Shown here: in pieces, positions 16,938 through 27,741 of the stretch | Layout: every line of letters begins with the position of its first letter | How positions within the stretch are numbered: the first letter of the stretch is position 1 | DNA from: Piscicola geometra | Taxonomy: Eukaryota > Annelida > Clitellata > Hirudinida > Piscicolidae | Length of the DNA: 64,000 bases | Reading direction: 5' to 3' | Assembly: GCA_943735955.1 (NCBI GenBank) | Contig: OX030957.1 | Coordinates: 1,600,001-1,664,000, forward strand | Position numbers and translations under genes: made by a program | The notes under the pieces: generated by a model | Database searches by the model: none | What the model was told of the DNA's origin: nothing | What the model saw: only the letters and a program-made list of their open reading frames with translations

Positions 16938-18426
16938 TCACTTGAACCTCGGCAGTTCCGGGTTGAATCGAGAGTTGTAGGACATCTTCCTCAGATCAGT
17001 GACCACCACCTCCTTCTTCTCATTGACGTCTCCCCTTATCAGCTTCTCAGCCTTCACTCTCTCCTTCCTCTCCCTCGCAATCCTCTCTTCCCTCAGCTCT
17101 TGAATGGTCTTCTTGTGTGTCGTCTTGCTCTTCACCTTTAAACTCTTGTGTACTTTACTTTCAGACTTTGGCTGTGGAAGTGGTAAGGTGCAAGAGGGCT
17201 TGGTGGATGAAGTGGTTGTACAATTATTAGACAACTGCATAAACACAACAAATCAGTATGTGAAAAGTGATTAAACCACAAAAATGGACACACAGACAAG
17301 CACACGAAGATGACACCAACATCGAAGTGTTTTCCTTTCTTGATGTCCTCGTACTTGTCAGTAAGTTCGAGGTAGTGCTTCATGGTTCTGAGAGGGTCGA
17401 GTGACAGCTTGCTCTTTAGTTGCACCTCATCTCTGAAGGGGACGAGGGGTTTAAAGAATGTTTTAAACATATTCATTTTATTCATAACTGTTTGAATATT
17501 TCAATTGAAATAAAATATATCACTTTTGTTAGTGTTGTGAAAGTAAATAAATACAAAACTATTCAGGACTAGTTTAATAGTACTTTGGATCTGGTTTCTT
17601 ATCCAAGTACCATGGTTTTTTGCCTGCAATAAATATTCATAAGATGATAACAGGAGTGAGTAAATGAGGATATGAATACTTATAAATCATGTTGAATGTT
17701 TACAATGGAATCTCTCCTGAACCTTCAAACTCAGATGAGCCCTGTCCGAGGAAGGTGAGGAGACCAACATCCATCTCAATCTTCTCCTGCTTCTTCCTCT
17801 CTTCCTCTTCATGCTCTTTGTTGCGTCGTGCCACCTTGTCCTTGTGGAGGAGATGAAAATGAAAAAAAATTCTCAAGTTTAAGTTTATTAACTATGAAAT
17901 AATTCAATAACAGAAATTAAATGTGAGTAAATAATAACCCCAGCTTCTAGGTCTTCAAAAAAGTTCACATGGCCTAGTTTTTTCACTTCAACTTCAGCAC
18001 CTTTGCACTCTTCAGTTACAAACTTCTTCACTGCCAAACTTCTCAGCAGTTCACTCCTTGCCTCAGATTCCTAAATATATAAAAAAAATAGCTTGTTTCA
18101 TCAATAATAATAAATTAAATAAAAGTTACAACATTAAGATTGGGATCTAGAGCTTTTATAAACATTTCAGATTTTAATTTCTATTTTAAATAAATAGCTA
18201 ACAGCTAGATCGATTTTCCTCTGTTTCTCCTTTTCTTCTTCTGCAGCTTTCGCCTCATCTTTCCTCACTTTTGCTAGATTCTTCTTAGAACGAACATGCC
18301 AGCTAAAAATATATAATGATTTTGTGAAACAGGGGCTTCTACCTTATGTAAGCTAAATTTAAATAGATAGAAAAACTTTTTGTAGATTATGAATTAACGA
18401 AACCTTTTTTTCGGATTAATATTCAT
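16938..18426 (-). CDS. LENG1: LENG1 homologue (CIR-N domain protein)
   Basis: Homologue of leukocyte receptor cluster member 1, a conserved nuclear protein of poorly defined role. Exons on the minus strand: 18426-18404, 18302-18203, 18070-17939, 17840-17723, 17623-17584, 17432-17321, 17171-16938; 252 aa (human about 264). The N-terminus reads [20 protein letters not shown], the CIR-N type block, followed by a Lys/Glu-rich helix. Further conserved blocks are [27 protein letters not shown] and, at the end, YNSRFNPEL. All seven exons join in phase. The donor at 17320 is the weakest choice. It shares a short upstream region with RNMT. Confidence 0.88.
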
Positions 18427-18624: not shown

Positions 18625-19461
18625 ATGGACGAGCAAAAACCTAAATACTTCAAAGTTAGTATTTATTAACATTAAAAGTAATAAATTCATAGTTTGGATT
18701 GCTCAATATACTTTTCAATCTTTTGCAAACTACTCATGCACAGTCTGACAATGGAGAGAAGAAAGAGATTCCAGGAGACGCCGACTGCACAGGAACGATT
18801 GCAGAGCACTACAACAAGAGGAAGGACTCGAACCTGAGCACGAGGTGGCTCAGTCCCAACTTCTACCAGAAGAACTTCAACAACTGGATCAAGAGTGTCA
18901 TTATTGGTCAGAGCAATATTATATTTCAACTATTTTACGATATTAACTTACATTGAATAAGGCTCGTTTGCTTGTTGAGTCATCAGTACCGATAGTACTA
19001 AGCAATAATGGCATGAATGCATTAATCAGTGAGGCTGGTAGAATGCTCACCATGGATGCACCTTTGCAGGCAACACCCTTAGCAGTGTGCGTGAAGGGAA
19101 GGGTGGGGAGTACGAAGTGGAGGTGTTGGACATGTGCAGTGGCAAGGGTGGAGACCTGCTCAAGTGGAAGAGTGGCAAGATACACAAGCTTGTGCTGATC
19201 GGTGGGCTTCAAGAATATATTTTGTATCTGTTTTGATTAAATATACTTTTTATATATAGTGATTAAATATGCTTTTTATATATATTTATTAAATATATTT
19301 AGTATATGTCTTGATTAAATATACTTTTTATATATAGTGATTAAATATGCTTTTTATATTTATTAGTTAAATATATTTAGTATATGTTTTGATTCAATAT
19401 ACTTTGTTAATGATAAACACACAAATAGATCAAACACACACACCTACACCAATCATTTACT

Positions 19462-19532
<71 letters not shown>

Positions 19533-21160
19533 TAGCAGAAGTTTCAGTGAATCAAAGTAAGCAGAGATATGAAGACTTACTCAGAAGAACTGAAATGGAA
19601 AATAACAGGGGTGGGAGAGGTGGTGGTTGGGGTAACAGGGGTGGGAGAGGTGGTGGTTGGGAAAACAGGGGTGGGAGAGGTGGTGGGTGGAAGGACAGTG
19701 GGGATGGAGGAGGAGGAGGAGGAGGAGGATGGACTGATAGGAAAGGAGGATGGAATGAAAGGAATGAGGGTGCAAGCAGGATTCATCATGACAGCAAGGA
19801 AGATGGAGGAGGTCAAAGAGGGGATCATGGTGAGGGAAGGAGTCATGATGATGATGCTAGGCAACGAAATACAGGCGGTAGTAGTAGTAGTAGTAGTGGC
19901 GGCAGTGGTGGTGGTGGTGGTAGTAGTGGTGGTGGTGGTGGTGGTAGTGGTGGTGGTGGTGGTGGTGGTGGTGGTGGTGGTGGTGGTGGTAATGATAGCT
20001 ATGGCAACAGAGGTAGACATGGTGACGGGTGGGATGGAAGGGGGGCTAGCAGAAACAAGTTGTTCTCTGCCGAGTTCTACACAGCCGACTGCACGAAGGT
20101 GGTTCATTGGGGAGTGGTTATTGTGGTTATAAACAGTTGTCACTACTATCAATAATAGTTTATAATAAAAAGAGGAATTTTAATAACGCGGCGTAAACTC
20201 GGACGAGCTTCAAGACCACCCTGATCTTGGATTTGCTAGCGATTATTTCAGACAATTGTTGGCTGGTTTAAATGACATTTTCGGCGGATATGCGAACAAG
20301 CTGTGGATTGCGTAAATGCTGCTGAAGACAATCGTGAAGTAGTGAAACTTCAGAGATAAAACACTTTTACAAGACTCATAAAATATTTATTATTTTCCAA
20401 ATAGAAAAAGTTTCAATGCTGTCGTAAATAAAACTAAAATATAACATATGACTGGAGTGTGGTTGTGATGTAGCGGCACTTTGTAGTCTTTGCAGAGTTT
20501 TCTCGATTTCTATTGATTCTGTGGCAGCAAGCAGAAGGGACAACGCCTGTGCTGTGCAGTCCTGGTACGATCAAACCTTCGGAAGCTTTGAAGTTAGGCC
20601 GATCATTCTGCAGCACCATCGTGATGATGATAGTTATGAACAGTTTCCTAGGACCGAACGAAAAGCCTTTCAGCGGCAAAGATGAAAAATTACATCGAAC
20701 GCACACACACACAGGCACTTCTTGCTTCCCGTGGTGACCTTTGTCTCTCTGGTAGATACAAACCACCTTACAGAATACATCTTTTTCTACAAGATTCTTC
20801 AGCCTTTCAACACACAATTCAAACTCTTGAAACTCTCTGCAGTGTCTCCAACTTTCTTTTAATCTGTTTTATAAGTGCTGTCAACACCATCACCACCCCC
20901 CATCATCACTATCAACACCACCGCCATCATCATCATCAACACCACCACCATCAATACCACCGCCATCATCATTATCAACACCACCACCATCATCATCAAC
21001 ACCACTAGACCATCATCATCAACACCACCCACCAGACACGTGTCAAGGACTTGTTGACACAACCTGAACAGCGCTTCGACATCACGAGTGCCCAGTTCTC
21101 CTTCCACTACTGCTTTGAAAGCCTCCCACAGGTCTTAATCTCTCTCTCTTTCTCTCTGTG

Positions 21161-21245
<85 letters not shown>

Positions 21246-22464
21246 GTTGTTAAAATGAATCAATCATTCTTCTATGAGTTTCTTGATTTTTCATCACCAT
21301 AATCACCACCATAAGTACCACCATCATCATTATCATCACCATCATCATTATCATCACCATAATCATTATCATCACCACCATCATCAGTACCACCATCATC
21401 ATTACCATCACCATCACCAGGCGAGGGTGATGATGAGGAACGCGGCAGAGTGCTTGAAGGAGGGGGGCTTCTTCATCGGAACGATCATCGACTCGAACAT
21501 CATGGTGTCTGTGGTGGAGGTGTTGTGGCTGTGGTTGTTATGGTTGTGGTTGTGGTTGGTATGTGGAGGTGTTGTGGCTGTGGTTGTTGTTGTTGTGGTT
21601 GTTGTGGTTGTGGTTGTTGTTGTAGTGGTTGTTGTGGCTGTGGTTGTGGTTGTTGTGGTTGTTGTTGTGGTTATCGCTTTTAGTTCTTTGTTCCCATTCC
21701 CGCATGACCGATTCCGGTCCTATGTGGAGAAGGTATGTGAACACCTCCCCCTCTCTCTCTTAGAGCCTCTTTGAGAGGTGGGGAAGAAGGTAGCGCTTTT
21801 GAGATCCTCTTCGTGCCCGTGAAGGCGGGAACATATAGCCGTTGTGTTGTTGTGGTTGTTGTGGTTGGTATGTGGAAGTGTTGTTGTGGCTGGTATGTGG
21901 AAGTGTTGTTGTGGTTGGTATGTGGAGGTGTTGTTGTGGCTGGTATGTGGAAGTGTTTTTGTTGTGGTGGTGTTTTGGCTAGCATGTGGTTGGCATGTGA
22001 TGTTGTTCTTGTGGTATTGTAGTGTAGTGGCCTGTAGTGGTGTTGCATTGGTGTCCTTGCGACCACATCTCCCTATTACCGCCCATTCATTCTCCCATTA
22101 CTGAGTAATCAGCGTCTCATAACGAACAACCTCATCACCGAATAGAAATGACGATGATACGATGAATTCGATTACGATCGCATTGATTGACCGACAGGCA
22201 GCGACTGAAGGCCTCTGAGGACATGCGCTTTGGCAACAAGTTGTACGAGGTGAGCTTCGAGTTGGAGAACAAGCAGACCATTCCCCTCTTCAACGCCAGG
22301 TGCTGCTTATTATTATTTATTTTTATTATTCTTGTTCGCCAGGTGCTGTTGCTTCTTTTCCCTTCCTATTCTTCTCTTTTTCAGTGTGCGATTGAATCGA
22401 AATAACTCAGATGGTTTCTTGCCTTGGCAGATGTTGATGATGATGATGATCTTGATGATGATCT

Positions 22465-22497
<33 letters not shown>

Positions 22498-24512
22498 GGA
22501 TAATATTAATATTGTTTTTCATCAAAGGTACCACTTCTACCTTGACGGCTCTGTCGATTGTCCTGAGTTCCTGGTGCACTTTCCACTCATGATTAAGTAA
22601 TAATAATAATGAAAATTATCATTTTTGTTATTTATATTATTAATATATAATTAACTATTAATACCACCACTATCGCTTACAACACCATGTAATGCGCAAT
22701 TAAAACCTTCACACTACTATCACTACCACCTCACACCACTACTATCACCACCACCTCACACCACTACTATCACCACCACACTCACGCCACCACTATCATC
22801 ACCATCTCACACCACTACTATCACCACCACCTCACACCACTACTATCAATACCACCTCACACCACTACTATCACCACCACCTCACACCACTACTATCACC
22901 ACCACACTCACGCCACCACTATCATCACCATCTCACACTCCCATCTCACACCACCAAACCACGACCACTATCACAACCGTCCACTACTATCTCACACTTA
23001 TTACTACTACTACTACCACATCACCAAATCACCACCACTCCTACCATACTCACACCAAACCACCACCACCATCACTACTACCAAACCACCACCACCAAAC
23101 CAAACCACCACCAAACCACCACTACCAAACCACTACCACCAAACCACTACTACCAAACCACTACTACCAAACCACCACCAAACCACTACTACCAAACCAC
23201 CACCAAACCACTACTACCAAACCACTACCAAACCACCACCAAACCACTACCACCAAACCACTACTACCAAACCACCACCAAACCACTACCACCAAACCAC
23301 CACCACCAAACCACTACCACCAAACCACTACTACCAAACCACTACTACCAAACCACCACCAAACCACTACTACCAAACCACTACTACCAAACCACTACCA
23401 AACCACCACCAAACCACTATCACCAAACCACCACCAAACCACTACTACCAAACCACTACCACCAAACAGTCACCAATGCACTACCACCAAAGCACCACCA
23501 CAAATCCTGACAGACTGGCGAGTGAATACGGCTTGGAGCTGGTGTACTGCAAGAGCTTCAAGCAGTTCTACGACGAGAACTGCCAATCAAGCCAACACAA
23601 ACTCCTCCTCAAGAAGATGTTCGCTCTAGAGGTGAGTCATCATCATCATCTAGTTTTCAACCATCATCTTCGTCGTCATCATCATTATCATCATCATCAT
23701 CTCATCATCATCATCATTATCATCACTAGTTGACCATCCTTACCACCACAACATCATCTTCATCATCACAACATTATCAACGCCTATACTATCTTGACAC
23801 TATCTACACATCATCATCAATACCATCATCATCATCAATACCATCATCATCATCACTATCACACCATCATCACTAACACCACCACCATCATCATCATCAT
23901 CACTATCACACCATCATCACTAACACCACAACCATCATCATCATCGTCACACCATTCAGAACTACCCACCAAGGCCTGAAGAAAAGCCGCATTGTGACCA
24001 CACCAAGTACACGCATGCGCAAGAATTCATTCAGAAACTGCGGCAAAACTCCCACTTGGCCAACGTGCCAGACCTGAGCGTTGTATGTGTATCTTTGTTT
24101 GTGTATGTGTGTGTGGAGGCTTCAATGTGTGTGTGTGTGTGTGTGCTTGTGAATGGATGGATGGATGGATGGATGCATGACATGATCCTTCTTGACTCAG
24201 TGTCACCAGTCATAACACCCTCCACTCCACCTCCATTCCACCTCACAGGGCACTTTGTCTTCAGAAGAGTGGGAAATAGCTGGTGAGTCATCCAACTCCT
24301 ACTTATTATTTCTATTAATTATCATTATTACCATTTCTTTAACTGTTTCCATGAACAACGTTTATCATGCCAATTTTATCCTTTATGTTTCGTAATTGTT
24401 TTGAGATTTCTTGCTTCATACACACACACATACACACAAACACACACACACAGGCCTCTATCAAGTCTTTTCATTCCAGAAGAGATCCAGCCATGGCAGC
24501 ACCTCCAAATAA
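18625..24512 (+). CDS. RNMT: mRNA cap guanine-N7 methyltransferase
   Basis: Adds the N7 methyl group to the guanosine cap of nascent mRNA in the nucleus. Exons: 18625-18654, 18744-18906, 19070-19201, 19530-20098, 21036-21131, 21421-21504, 22202-22299, 22528-22596, 23514-23631, 23960-24082, 24249-24282, 24454-24512; 524 aa with matching phases. Conserved blocks: [25 protein letters not shown] motif [90 protein letters not shown]. Only about 25 residues precede the catalytic domain, so the long vertebrate N-terminal region is missing. Exon 4 carries a roughly 150-residue RGG and poly-Gly insertion. The AATAAA at 24508 overlaps the stop codon. Confidence 0.95.
19463..19528 (+). repeat. (CA)n abutting the RNMT exon-4 acceptor
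   Basis: About 66 bp of ca repeats that run into the 3' splice site (cacacag, exon from 19530), standing in for the usual polypyrimidine tract. Confidence 0.92.
19600..20053 (+). repeat. Coding insertion: RGG repeats and poly-Gly in RNMT
   Basis: Within RNMT exon 4. It starts with three near-exact 30-bp units encoding NRGGRGGGW plus one residue, passes through a mixed Gly/Glu/Asp/Arg/His segment, and ends in a (ggt)n tract (about 19876-19990) coding for Ser-Gly then poly-Gly. The frame stays open on both sides of conserved motifs (QRYEDLL before, [10 protein letters not shown] after), which argues that it is translated. Human RNMT has only a short loop here. Confidence 0.85.
20099..21035. 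other. RNMT intron 4 with a possible antisense ORF
   Basis: 937-bp intron. Its middle (20434-20817, minus) keeps a 127-aa frame open with balanced codon use; the last 60 residues hold [16 protein letters not shown] and [20 protein letters not shown] minus-strand AATAAA occurs near 20385. I do not recognise the product and see no conserved start. The right part (20880-21030) is cat/acc repeats leading to the acceptor. Confidence 0.35.
21157..21241 (+). repeat. (TG)n microsatellite, RNMT intron 5
   Basis: About 85 bp of tg repeats with one tt interruption, about 25 bp after the donor at 21132. Confidence 0.93.
21295..21420 (+). repeat. CAT/ATC array supplying an RNMT acceptor
   Basis: Degenerate trinucleotide array (tcatcaccat and related) whose last unit ends in caccag, the 3' splice site of the exon starting at 21421. 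Confidence 0.88.
21505..22010 (+). repeat. GTTGTG and TATGTGGAAGTG minisatellites, RNMT intron 6
   Basis: Two arrays separated by unique sequence (about 21675-21830): gttgtg/gtggttgt units right after the donor at 21505, then longer units around ttgtggctggtatgtggaag. The frames across them (Val/Cys/Gly-rich) are artefacts. Confidence 0.85.
22660..23500 (+). repeat. ACC/ACT-rich satellite filling RNMT intron 8
   Basis: Nearly the whole intron (22597-23513) is low-complexity: cactactatcaccaccacct units on the left, then aaaccactaccacc and aaaccaccacc units on the right, ending just before the acceptor at 23513. The left part contains a longer duplicated block. Confidence 0.9.
23640..23950 (+). 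repeat. CAT/ATC arrays, RNMT intron 9
   Basis: Trinucleotide arrays starting about 6 bp after the donor at 23632 and running to the acceptor before 23960. The segment near 23840-23945 holds a short direct repeat with cactatcacaccatcatcac. Confidence 0.88.
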
Positions 24513-25244: not shown

Positions 25245-26382
25245 TCACAGGAGCGTGTCCTCATCCCTGATGTACTCTCCCACATCAGCCTGATGGAAGG
25301 CAACCACGTCGGTCAGGTCGCCCTTCCTGCAGTCCTCTGTCGCCTTCGCTGCCACTCCAAAGCCCTGTCAGGAGAGGTGCTTGGTGTGTCTTGCTGAGTT
25401 TTGTGTGCATATACATCATAACTATTACCTTCCGCATCATTATCACCACTACCTTCATCATCATCCCTACCACCTCCTTCATAGCCACCACCAGCACCAT
25501 GCACCACCAGTACCATGCACCACCCACAACGTACCAGTGGCACGTCACTCATGGAGTAGACAACGACTCCTTGGTAGCGTGGCGTGTTCTCGGTGATACG
25601 ACCGAGGCCTGACTTGAGAATGTGCTGGCCGGACAGGAACTTGCTCTCAAAGCCTGGCTTCACCCACACCTTGTGCTGATTTGAATGGATGTGACTAATT
25701 TGAAGATTAATATGTTTGAAAAGTTTGGATTTTTTGGCGAATATTAGAATTGAATTATTATTTATACCTTGGCGTAGGGAGCAAGGTAGTCTAGAGCTGT
25801 GATCTTGACCTTGAACTTTTTGGAGGTTGTGAACTTGCCAAAGCATGTGCCAAACGAGATGAGTTTGTCCCTTGGGAAGTGAGCTGCCTTCTTCACCAGG
25901 AACTCACTGCAAGTGAGAATTGTTTTAAATAAAAAAAATAACTTTTTCTTTGTTCACAGCAATAGCTGCATTATGTCTTATTATACTTATTAATAATTAA
26001 TGAAAGTCACTTTCCACTTGATCTCAATAAATTATAGAATAATTGAAACGCGCAAAATGCATCATACTTTGCGTAGAAAACTCTTTCTTTGTGCAGTCTG
26101 AAGCAGTAGTTTCCATCAGATCTCTTGATCAACAGCTCTATGTTGTCACCTATACTGCAAAGAGATCAAGACATTCAATTAGTTTGACACTTCATTTTTT
26201 CGTATGTGGAATAAAAAATAGTTTTATCTAAAAATAACTGATATATTTAGTGATTGGGGTGTTAATTATTAGTAATAAAGAAATTCATGAAATTTTACAA
26301 AAATCAATAATTACAAATAATTATACTATTTTGAGAGCTTTTCAAAGAATATTTTAGTTTCTTCTTCTGTCAAAGGCCTCAT
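25245..26382 (-). CDS. NIP7: 60S ribosome subunit biogenesis protein NIP7
   Basis: Nucleolar PUA-domain protein needed for pre-rRNA processing and 60S subunit assembly. Exons on the minus strand: 26382-26327, 26154-26068, 25906-25768, 25675-25535, 25364-25245; exactly 180 aa, the same length as the human protein, with all phases matching. Conserved blocks: start MRPLTEEET, then [75 protein letters not shown]. The C-terminal part from about residue 95 is the PUA RNA-binding domain. Nothing is missing or broken. Confidence 0.97.
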
Positions 26383-26953: not shown

Positions 26954-27733
26954 CAGTGTTATTTTCGTAACGAAAACGAAAACGACAATTCTGAATAATC
27001 GTTCCACGAAAACGAAAATAAAAACTAAATTTATTTTCAAAACGAAAACGAAAATAAAAACTATAATTATTTCTAAAACGAAACTGAAATAAAAACTATA
27101 ATTATTTTCAAAACGAAAATTAAATAAATTTTTAGGATATGCCATAATAGGCAAATGAATAACTTTTATTAAAAATATGTCTTTGTTATAAACATTATCT
27201 TTGGGCTTTATGAAAGTAGCGCCATTTATCAAACGTTATTTTATTACCGCTTCTCTTTGTCAATTAAATTATCACTTATTTTAATCATAGATTTGTTGTT
27301 ATAATTTAAATTTGTTGTTAATCAATAATTTACGTAATCAATTCTTATAATATTTCAATTGACTGTTAATTTTTTAAACTCATTTGTTGTTAATATACTG
27401 TTTTCATAGATATCAAAAACAAGTAGTATATATACTATATCTATGACTGTTCTATTTTACCGTTTCATTTTATGATAAATTAATTTTTTTAGATATAAAA
27501 AAAAAGTGTTTAAAGTTGTAAATTAATATTTTTTCAAAACTAAAATGAAAATAAAAACTATAATTATTTTCAAAACTGAAACGAAAATAAAAACTATAAT
27601 TATTTTCAAAACGAAAACGAAAATAAAAACTATAATTATTTCCAAAACGAAAACGAAAATAAAAACTATAATTAATTTCAAAACGAAACTGAAATAAAAA
27701 CTATAATTATTTTATGAAACGAAAATAACACTG
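26954..27733. mobile_element. hAT-like MITE
   Basis: A 780-bp element with terminal inverted repeats: cagtgttattttcgt at 26954-26968 and its exact reverse complement acgaaaataacactg at 27719-27733. It is flanked by the perfect 8-bp duplication cacagtag (26946-26953 and 27734-27741). An 8-bp duplication with ends starting CAGTG is the hAT signature. No transposase frame is present. Both sub-terminal regions carry the same direct repeat (cgaaaataaaaactataatt) in several copies. Confidence 0.9.
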
Positions 27734-27741
27734 CACAGTAG

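Follow-up and report, generated by a model that had tools for sequence, protein, structure and literature searches.

A repeat-rich insert with an RGG box in a predicted animal mRNA cap methyltransferase, and a shortened RAM-like gene in the same genome

The window (the whole stretch of 64,000 nucleotides analysed here) contains a gene that, judged by homology, is an animal mRNA cap guanine-N7 methyltransferase (RNMT, PF03291). The catalytic fold it encodes is interrupted by a 152-residue insert that begins with an RGG box. As the best explanation we are inclined, with moderate confidence, to see here a loop that grew by repeats and became a likely RNA-binding arm, the RAM-like protein encoded elsewhere in the genome contributing the allosteric part only. 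What deserves to be pursued is the combination of an RGG-armed RNMT and a RAM devoid of its RNA-binding domain, seen in one genome only.

The RNMT gene model comprises 12 exons on the plus strand (18625-24512), encodes 522 residues, ends with a TAA stop and has GT/AG boundaries at all 11 introns. Exon 1 (18625-18654) is the least certain; it has no homology support, and the proposed start is based on an ATG, an open exon and a GT donor. The later part of exon 2 (18744-18906, with GT/AG ends) aligns with human RNMT chains. Exon 3 (19070-19201) carries the SAM-binding Motif I, while exon 4 (19530-20098) encodes Motif II (DIA), a helix, the insert and then the beta-3 strand. Exons 5 (21048-21131), 6 (21421-21506), 7 (22198-22299) and 8 (22528-22596) are followed by exon 9 (23514-23631), which covers the hinge and the start of the lobe, by exon 10 (23960-24082), which continues the lobe, and by exons 11 (24249-24282) and 12 (24454-24512), the latter containing the stop codon. 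Tandem arrays made of CAC/CAT, TG, CA, CACCAAACCACTAC and other units are present in 8 of the 11 introns (19202-24453).

The identification of the enzyme as RNMT, proposed by an earlier sequence-only reading of this DNA, was right. With the insert left out, the core matches human RNMT (3bgv) with an E-value of 2.9e-87 over its residues 49-362, and 154 of the 307 aligned residues are identical. Thirteen of the 16 SAM/cap active-site positions that we checked are the same as in human. The differences are R173K, G205C and S262C, the last two of which also occur in the consensus of 45 homologues. Of the 16 checked positions, 13 are named in the consulted parts of PMC5137418 and PMC7145595, and the other three presumably belong to the active site. 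The nearest relative, P0001 (a transcript), reaches 354.9 bits against PF03291. For exon 4 by itself, insert included, the value is 18.9 bits, below the cut-off of 26.6. At E 0.001 the 171-Mb, 66-contig assembly yielded six RNMT matches, all of them exons of one locus, the sole RNMT locus found in the assembly. Apart from the insert, the catalytic fold is complete by sequence, and cap N7 methylation is the predicted activity. In the phylogenetic tree this RNMT has a long branch; its pairing with P0001 is firm and that with P0072 less so. Beyond these pairings the tree gives no firm placement, the nearest named rows by path length being Lingula, Ridgeia and Haliotis. The tree and the 171-Mb size of the assembly suggest that the animal is an invertebrate. 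We also considered the short N terminus as a special loss and rejected the idea, as 31 residues precede HYN here compared with a median of 30 in the 120 listed homologues.

The insert (19601-20056, plus strand; residues 133-284) separates the helix that follows Motif II from beta-3. In the translation of exon 4 it is in frame and stop-free, with KLFSAEF directly after it. This confirms the place in the fold that had been claimed for about 150 extra residues, and the limits given then (19600-20053) were accurate to a few bases. Human RNMT does have a short loop at this point, as had been stated: the PDB chains of the human enzyme show only MKNRRDSEYI there. An open frame by itself says little, because GGT and GGA repeats contain no stop; the same DNA is open in one other plus-strand frame (19551-20132) and, wholly or partly, in two minus-strand frames (19577-20179 and 19581-19856).

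Four sections make up the insert. The RGG box (19601-19690, residues 133-162) consists of three copies of a 30-bp unit (TRF period 30, 3.0 copies, 93% match). It is followed by a mixed-charge Gly-rich segment with a GGA run (19691-19873, residues 163-223), by a Ser/Gly run derived from AGT and GGT repeats (19874-19990, residues 224-262; TRF period 3, 28.7 copies at 19905-19990) and by a C-terminal RG tail (19991-20056, residues 263-284). Altogether there are six RGG motifs, nine RG motifs (RGG included) and six Trp residues, every one of the latter preceded by Gly; within the RGG units Trp recurs every 10 residues. A reading of the six Trp residues as a WG/GW Argonaute hook was considered and set aside. 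With three RGGRGG pairs, the RGG box has more than the two closely spaced RGG motifs that define such a segment, and it contains six Arg and one acidic residue. The mixed segment has 10 Arg/Lys and 13 Asp/Glu. Over the whole insert 20 Arg/Lys are set against 17 Asp/Glu, and this net charge of only +3 counts against an RNA-binding arm. The make-up given in the sequence-only reading, with three NRGGRGGGW units, a charged segment and a long Gly-rich run, holds, with the qualification that the RGG box covers about 30 residues at the start, the remainder being nearly charge-balanced or neutral Gly/Ser. The arginines of the RGG units may be methylated, as that reading suggested.

To compare this region among RNMTs, we took 120 listed homologues out of 954 matches and measured the loop running from YED up to the aromatic residue with which the next strand starts. 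The loop has 8-16 residues in all 120 and 162 residues here by the same measure; among the matches listed, of 954, none has a loop longer than 16 residues. An alignment with related species had been suggested earlier as a check, and the 152-residue insert is found in none of the 120 listed homologues. The nearest relative, P0001 (64-66% identity), has the 8-residue loop LKKRNNRL. Therefore, the insert was either gained after the split from P0001 or lost in P0001, and the lack of an arm in this relative counts against the RNA-binding reading. A narrow region search (361 candidates) revealed no other RNMT with an RGG insert, its seven matches at E up to 1 having short loops by eye. Likewise, no donor gene for the RGG units was detected in the genome, where the first 91 residues of the insert match only their own locus (E 0.01, 20 candidates scored).

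The composition of the loop is distinctive in the 120 listed homologues. Arg accounts for 20.8% of loop residues and for 5.3% elsewhere from HYN to the end, and an RGG, RGRG, GRGR or GGRG motif is present in 11 of the 120 loops (median 14 residues) versus 3 of 120 for the remainder from HYN to the end. These 11 rows are Littorina (P0060), Nucella (P0024), Babylonia (P0026) and Batillaria (P0008), which we take to be caenogastropods, together with P0039, P0042, P0048, P0099, P0102, P0113 and P0114, among which are the annelid Owenia, the moths Spodoptera and Mythimna, and four further rows. Related rows are not independent, yet several lineages are apparently involved. Because the loop is Arg-rich and carries RG motifs in 11 of 120 cases, the insert may be seen as carrying to an extreme what is common in this loop, which tends to be basic and RG-prone. 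We infer that the RNMT loop may contact RNA, and its Arg-rich nature marks it as a likely RNA contact site in animal RNMTs. The RNMTs of Littorina, Nucella, Babylonia and Batillaria resemble the present one in having an RG/RGG motif in the same loop. However, their loops have only 14-16 residues, and the RG motifs probably arose separately.

The comparison also bears on the lobe. A regular expression detected a lobe-length segment of 32-85 residues in 111 of 128 RNMT rows (P0001-P0120, P0208-P0214 and the RNMT of the window; 17 had no pattern match), although length is no proof of the lobe fold. According to the consulted part of PMC12599247, the RNMT lobe is unique to vertebrates. Contrary to this, the lobe-length segment has, by pattern, counterparts outside vertebrates: the 120 listed homologues include seven named fishes, and most of the other named rows are invertebrates.

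The sequence-only reading had proposed a search for a RAM/FAM103A1 homologue in this genome. A RAM-like gene is present, and on its gene model the RNA-binding domain is reduced to a stub. Genome searches found nothing with the human protein and nothing with PF15320 at E 0.001, controls for the latter being uninformative. At E 10, PF15320 gave one site (contig C4 7968858-7968953, minus strand) with 21.8 bits and a genome-wide E-value of 0.04. The gene model at this site (C4 7968659-7969058, minus strand; L009 8059-7845 and 7696-7660) has two exons encoding 83 residues, a pyrimidine tract preceding the acceptor, a TAA stop and AATAAA at the stop. The spliced product scores 26.5 bits against PF15320 (cut-off 25, E 9.3e-6); if the first exon is extended into the intron, the score is 23.1 bits, below the cut-off. 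In a 48-row RAM profile the product obtains 20.0 bits, compared with 9.2 for the best of 5000 shuffles. A convergent gene of the ubiquitin family, presumably NEDD8-like, has its stop about 280 bases beyond the RAM-like gene and leaves little space for a further exon. A second RAM gene with introns within the activating domain could escape detection by such searches.

Contact residues of the RAM-like protein were read from an alignment in which P0122 stands in for human numbering. Of the 12 hydrophobic RAM contacts given in the consulted part of PMC5137418, four (F15, Y29, P37 and P38) are identical, four (F11, F19, V40 and W43) are replaced by the similar Y, Y, L and F, respectively, and A7, V8, I39 and Y26 are not preserved, being either altered or missing. 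At the salt-bridge positions E25, R32 and E42 the protein has a gap, T and D, and the three RNMT residues that pair with them differ as well. On the RNMT side of the interface, 8 of the 16 hydrophobic contacts and none of the three salt-bridge contacts are identical, which counts against the reading proposed here. Overall, these comparisons of sequence make RAM orthology well supported, with an interface that appears to have drifted. The C-terminus of the protein is NKRYQYNRNQQHSH, ending 22 residues past the conserved PP. The distance from PP to the end is 61-126 residues in 47 RAM rows, a range that applies to longer rows only: 48 of 87 rows were kept (at least 110 aa, with core motifs), 47 of them were measured, and the 39 dropped were shorter or without a core motif. 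On the gene model, then, the activating domain is present and both the N/R-rich RNA-binding domain (human residues 56-90) and the QYP tail are absent.

RAM is stated to occur in vertebrates only in the consulted parts of PMC3235549 and PMC5137418, and an annotated RAM in a Daphnia iridovirus is mentioned in that of PMC5873915. Our protein search, which requires shared 5-residue words, returned 87 RAM proteins, and all those named by organism are from vertebrates. The RAM-like gene described here appears to belong to an invertebrate genome, contrary to the vertebrate-only statements; the databases may well hold invertebrate RAMs already. Human RNMT with RAM (PDB 5E8J, 3BGV) and the pair described here have in common the enzyme family and most active-site residues, and a lobe-length segment and a RAM-like gene are also present here. 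The two systems differ in the loop, which has about 10 residues in human RNMT against the 152-residue insert, and in the RNA-binding segment, which in human is part of the separate RAM (residues 56-90) and here is a stub. It might be argued that the RNA-holding module has moved, RAM being reduced to its 83-residue allosteric part and RNMT having gained an RGG arm for RNA capture in cis. We regard this more specific scenario as rather unlikely. If true, it would represent a natural separation of the allosteric and RNA-holding roles of RAM, and the RGG-armed RNMT with its truncated RAM would make it possible to ask directly how far cap methylation in the cell depends on RNA tethering.

How an RNA-binding arm could work follows from the expected topology of class I methyltransferases. 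The loop would run into beta-3 at its N-terminal end, on the sheet face that points away from the SAM/cap pocket, so that the fold could tolerate a long disordered arm; with its 152 residues, such an arm could nevertheless extend to RNA on its way out of the enzyme. The RGG box of about 30 residues would hold nascent capped RNA weakly and non-specifically for sequence, thereby raising the local RNA concentration at RNMT, and the Gly/Ser run would be a passive tether of variable length. Since its RNA-binding part is a stub in the gene model, the RAM-like protein would contribute only allosteric activation. RNA binding in cis by the RGG arm, favoured by the Arg- and RG-rich loops and by the RAM stub, would complete this division of labour. 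RGG arms on RNA methyltransferases are already known. In METTL3-METTL14, according to the consulted part of PMC8828048, RGG motifs of METTL14 likewise add RNA affinity, and binding affinity is 2- to 10-fold lower without the METTL14 RGG motif; these motifs differ in being C-terminal, in a partner subunit of an m6A enzyme and conserved in higher vertebrates. The fibrillarin GAR domain is also an RGG/Gly-rich arm on an RNA methyltransferase; as described in the consulted part of PMC9957100, it is N-terminal and conserved, has more than 10 RGG/RG motifs mostly spaced by Phe, and belongs to an enzyme of rRNA 2'-O-methylation. In contrast, the present arm has Trp spacers and is situated inside the catalytic fold. 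Judged by titles and abstract openings, none of the papers listed in a literature search reports an RGG insert in a cap methyltransferase.

The sequence shows that a short Arg-rich loop grew, with the frame kept, to 152 residues through duplication of the 30-bp RGG-coding unit, with contributions from GGA, AGT and GGT slippage. Judged by its repeats, the insert bears the signature of slippage and unit duplication. In addition to the 30-bp unit of the RGG box and the Gly run (a GTG unit in TRF terms), TRF reports a 21-bp unit in two copies. Tandem arrays account for 48% of the insert and for the same share of the bases of the 11 introns, against 11% of the window; the other 11 exons contain none. 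GGT is used for 43 of 69 Gly codons inside the insert versus 2 of 20 outside (Fisher p = 3e-5, with repeated codons not independent). Since the insert equals the introns in repeat content, its origin requires no selection, and the three RGG units, being 93% alike, are too similar to reveal purifying selection. The array coverage and the codon bias are what would be expected under the strongest rival explanation, according to which neutral slippage of repeats in a tolerant surface loop extended the microsatellite growth of the introns into this exon, producing an arm that is translated and does nothing notable. The lack of an arm in P0001 speaks for it as well. However, the growth sits in a loop that is generally Arg-rich and, in several lineages, RG-rich; moreover, the 30-bp RGG unit is no plain microsatellite, and Trp keeps its 10-residue spacing in the units. 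Neutral slippage is thus a serious candidate, even if we find it somewhat unlikely.

The stretch that codes for the insert might be in part intronic, or a cassette subject to alternative splicing, in which case much of the protein would lack some or most of the insert; we consider this improbable. Its GT-rich sequence has many donor-like sites that score like the gene's own weak donors. The scoring matrix comes from the gene's own 11 introns and is weak, and the real introns were scored leave-one-out, which favours the candidate; on this scale the in-frame pair that scores highest, 19683-19874 (192 nt), reaches a sum of 15.5 and exceeds 8 of the 11 real introns. Its removal would drop the mixed-charge segment and retain the Gly run and almost the whole RGG box. 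The pair 19611-20012 gives the shortest loop obtainable with GT-AG, 28 residues, so that no such pair restores the 8-16 residues of the relatives. Among the in-frame GT-AG pairs (at least 40 bases, within exon 4, stop-free, with RYED and FSAEFY kept), 241 of 247 retain at least one RGG. No loop shorter than 66 residues results from any of the 21 GC-AG pairs, and the acceptors near the 3' end (20012, 20049 and 20052) have no pyrimidine tract. One of 36 AT-AC pairs (19595-20056) leaves exactly eight residues, but its donor ATGGAAAA does not resemble the consensus of minor-class donors. Given the weak donors and the score of 19683-19874, splicing might remove part of the insert; it is unlikely to take out the RGG box. 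Homologue searches returned no protein of this species among the matches listed, which counts against the arm as a translated RNA-binding element. Simple repeats are also prone to length error, yet an assembly or allele artefact is hardly credible, since, within a 13.7-Mb contig of the 66-contig assembly, a single open frame takes in the flanks on either side as well as those portions of the insert that are not repeats, and a length error would not generate RGG units. Finally, the RGG-coding stretch could act in the mRNA by forming G-quadruplexes bound by the RGG arm itself, resulting in autoregulation. For FUS, FMRP and G3BP1, the consulted part of PMC11789052 describes RGG motifs that are encoded by G-quadruplexes in the respective mRNA, a situation given as common for RGG motifs. 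The G4Hunter score of 2.16 at 19595-19733 is among the top three of 23 regions above 1.2 (plus strand), and ViennaRNA gives 19601-19720 an energy of -52.3 kcal/mol with G-quadruplex energies and -2.4 kcal/mol without them, values that carry no shuffle control. Nevertheless, only two-layer quadruplexes are predicted, there is no G3 motif with loops of 1-7, and a G-rich stretch is expected without function because Arg and Gly codons are G-rich. Such autoregulation seems very improbable to us.

Two minus-strand genes flank RNMT. The divergent neighbour is a Cir_N-domain gene (17700-18304), presumably LENG1-like; its 5'-most recognised piece starts at 18304, and an earlier exon is likely. The convergent neighbour is a NIP7 gene at about 25250-25920. 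Farther on, at 26955-27740, several copies of AT-rich repeats of the type CAAAACGAAAACGAAAATAAAAACTATAATTATTTT can be recognised by eye.
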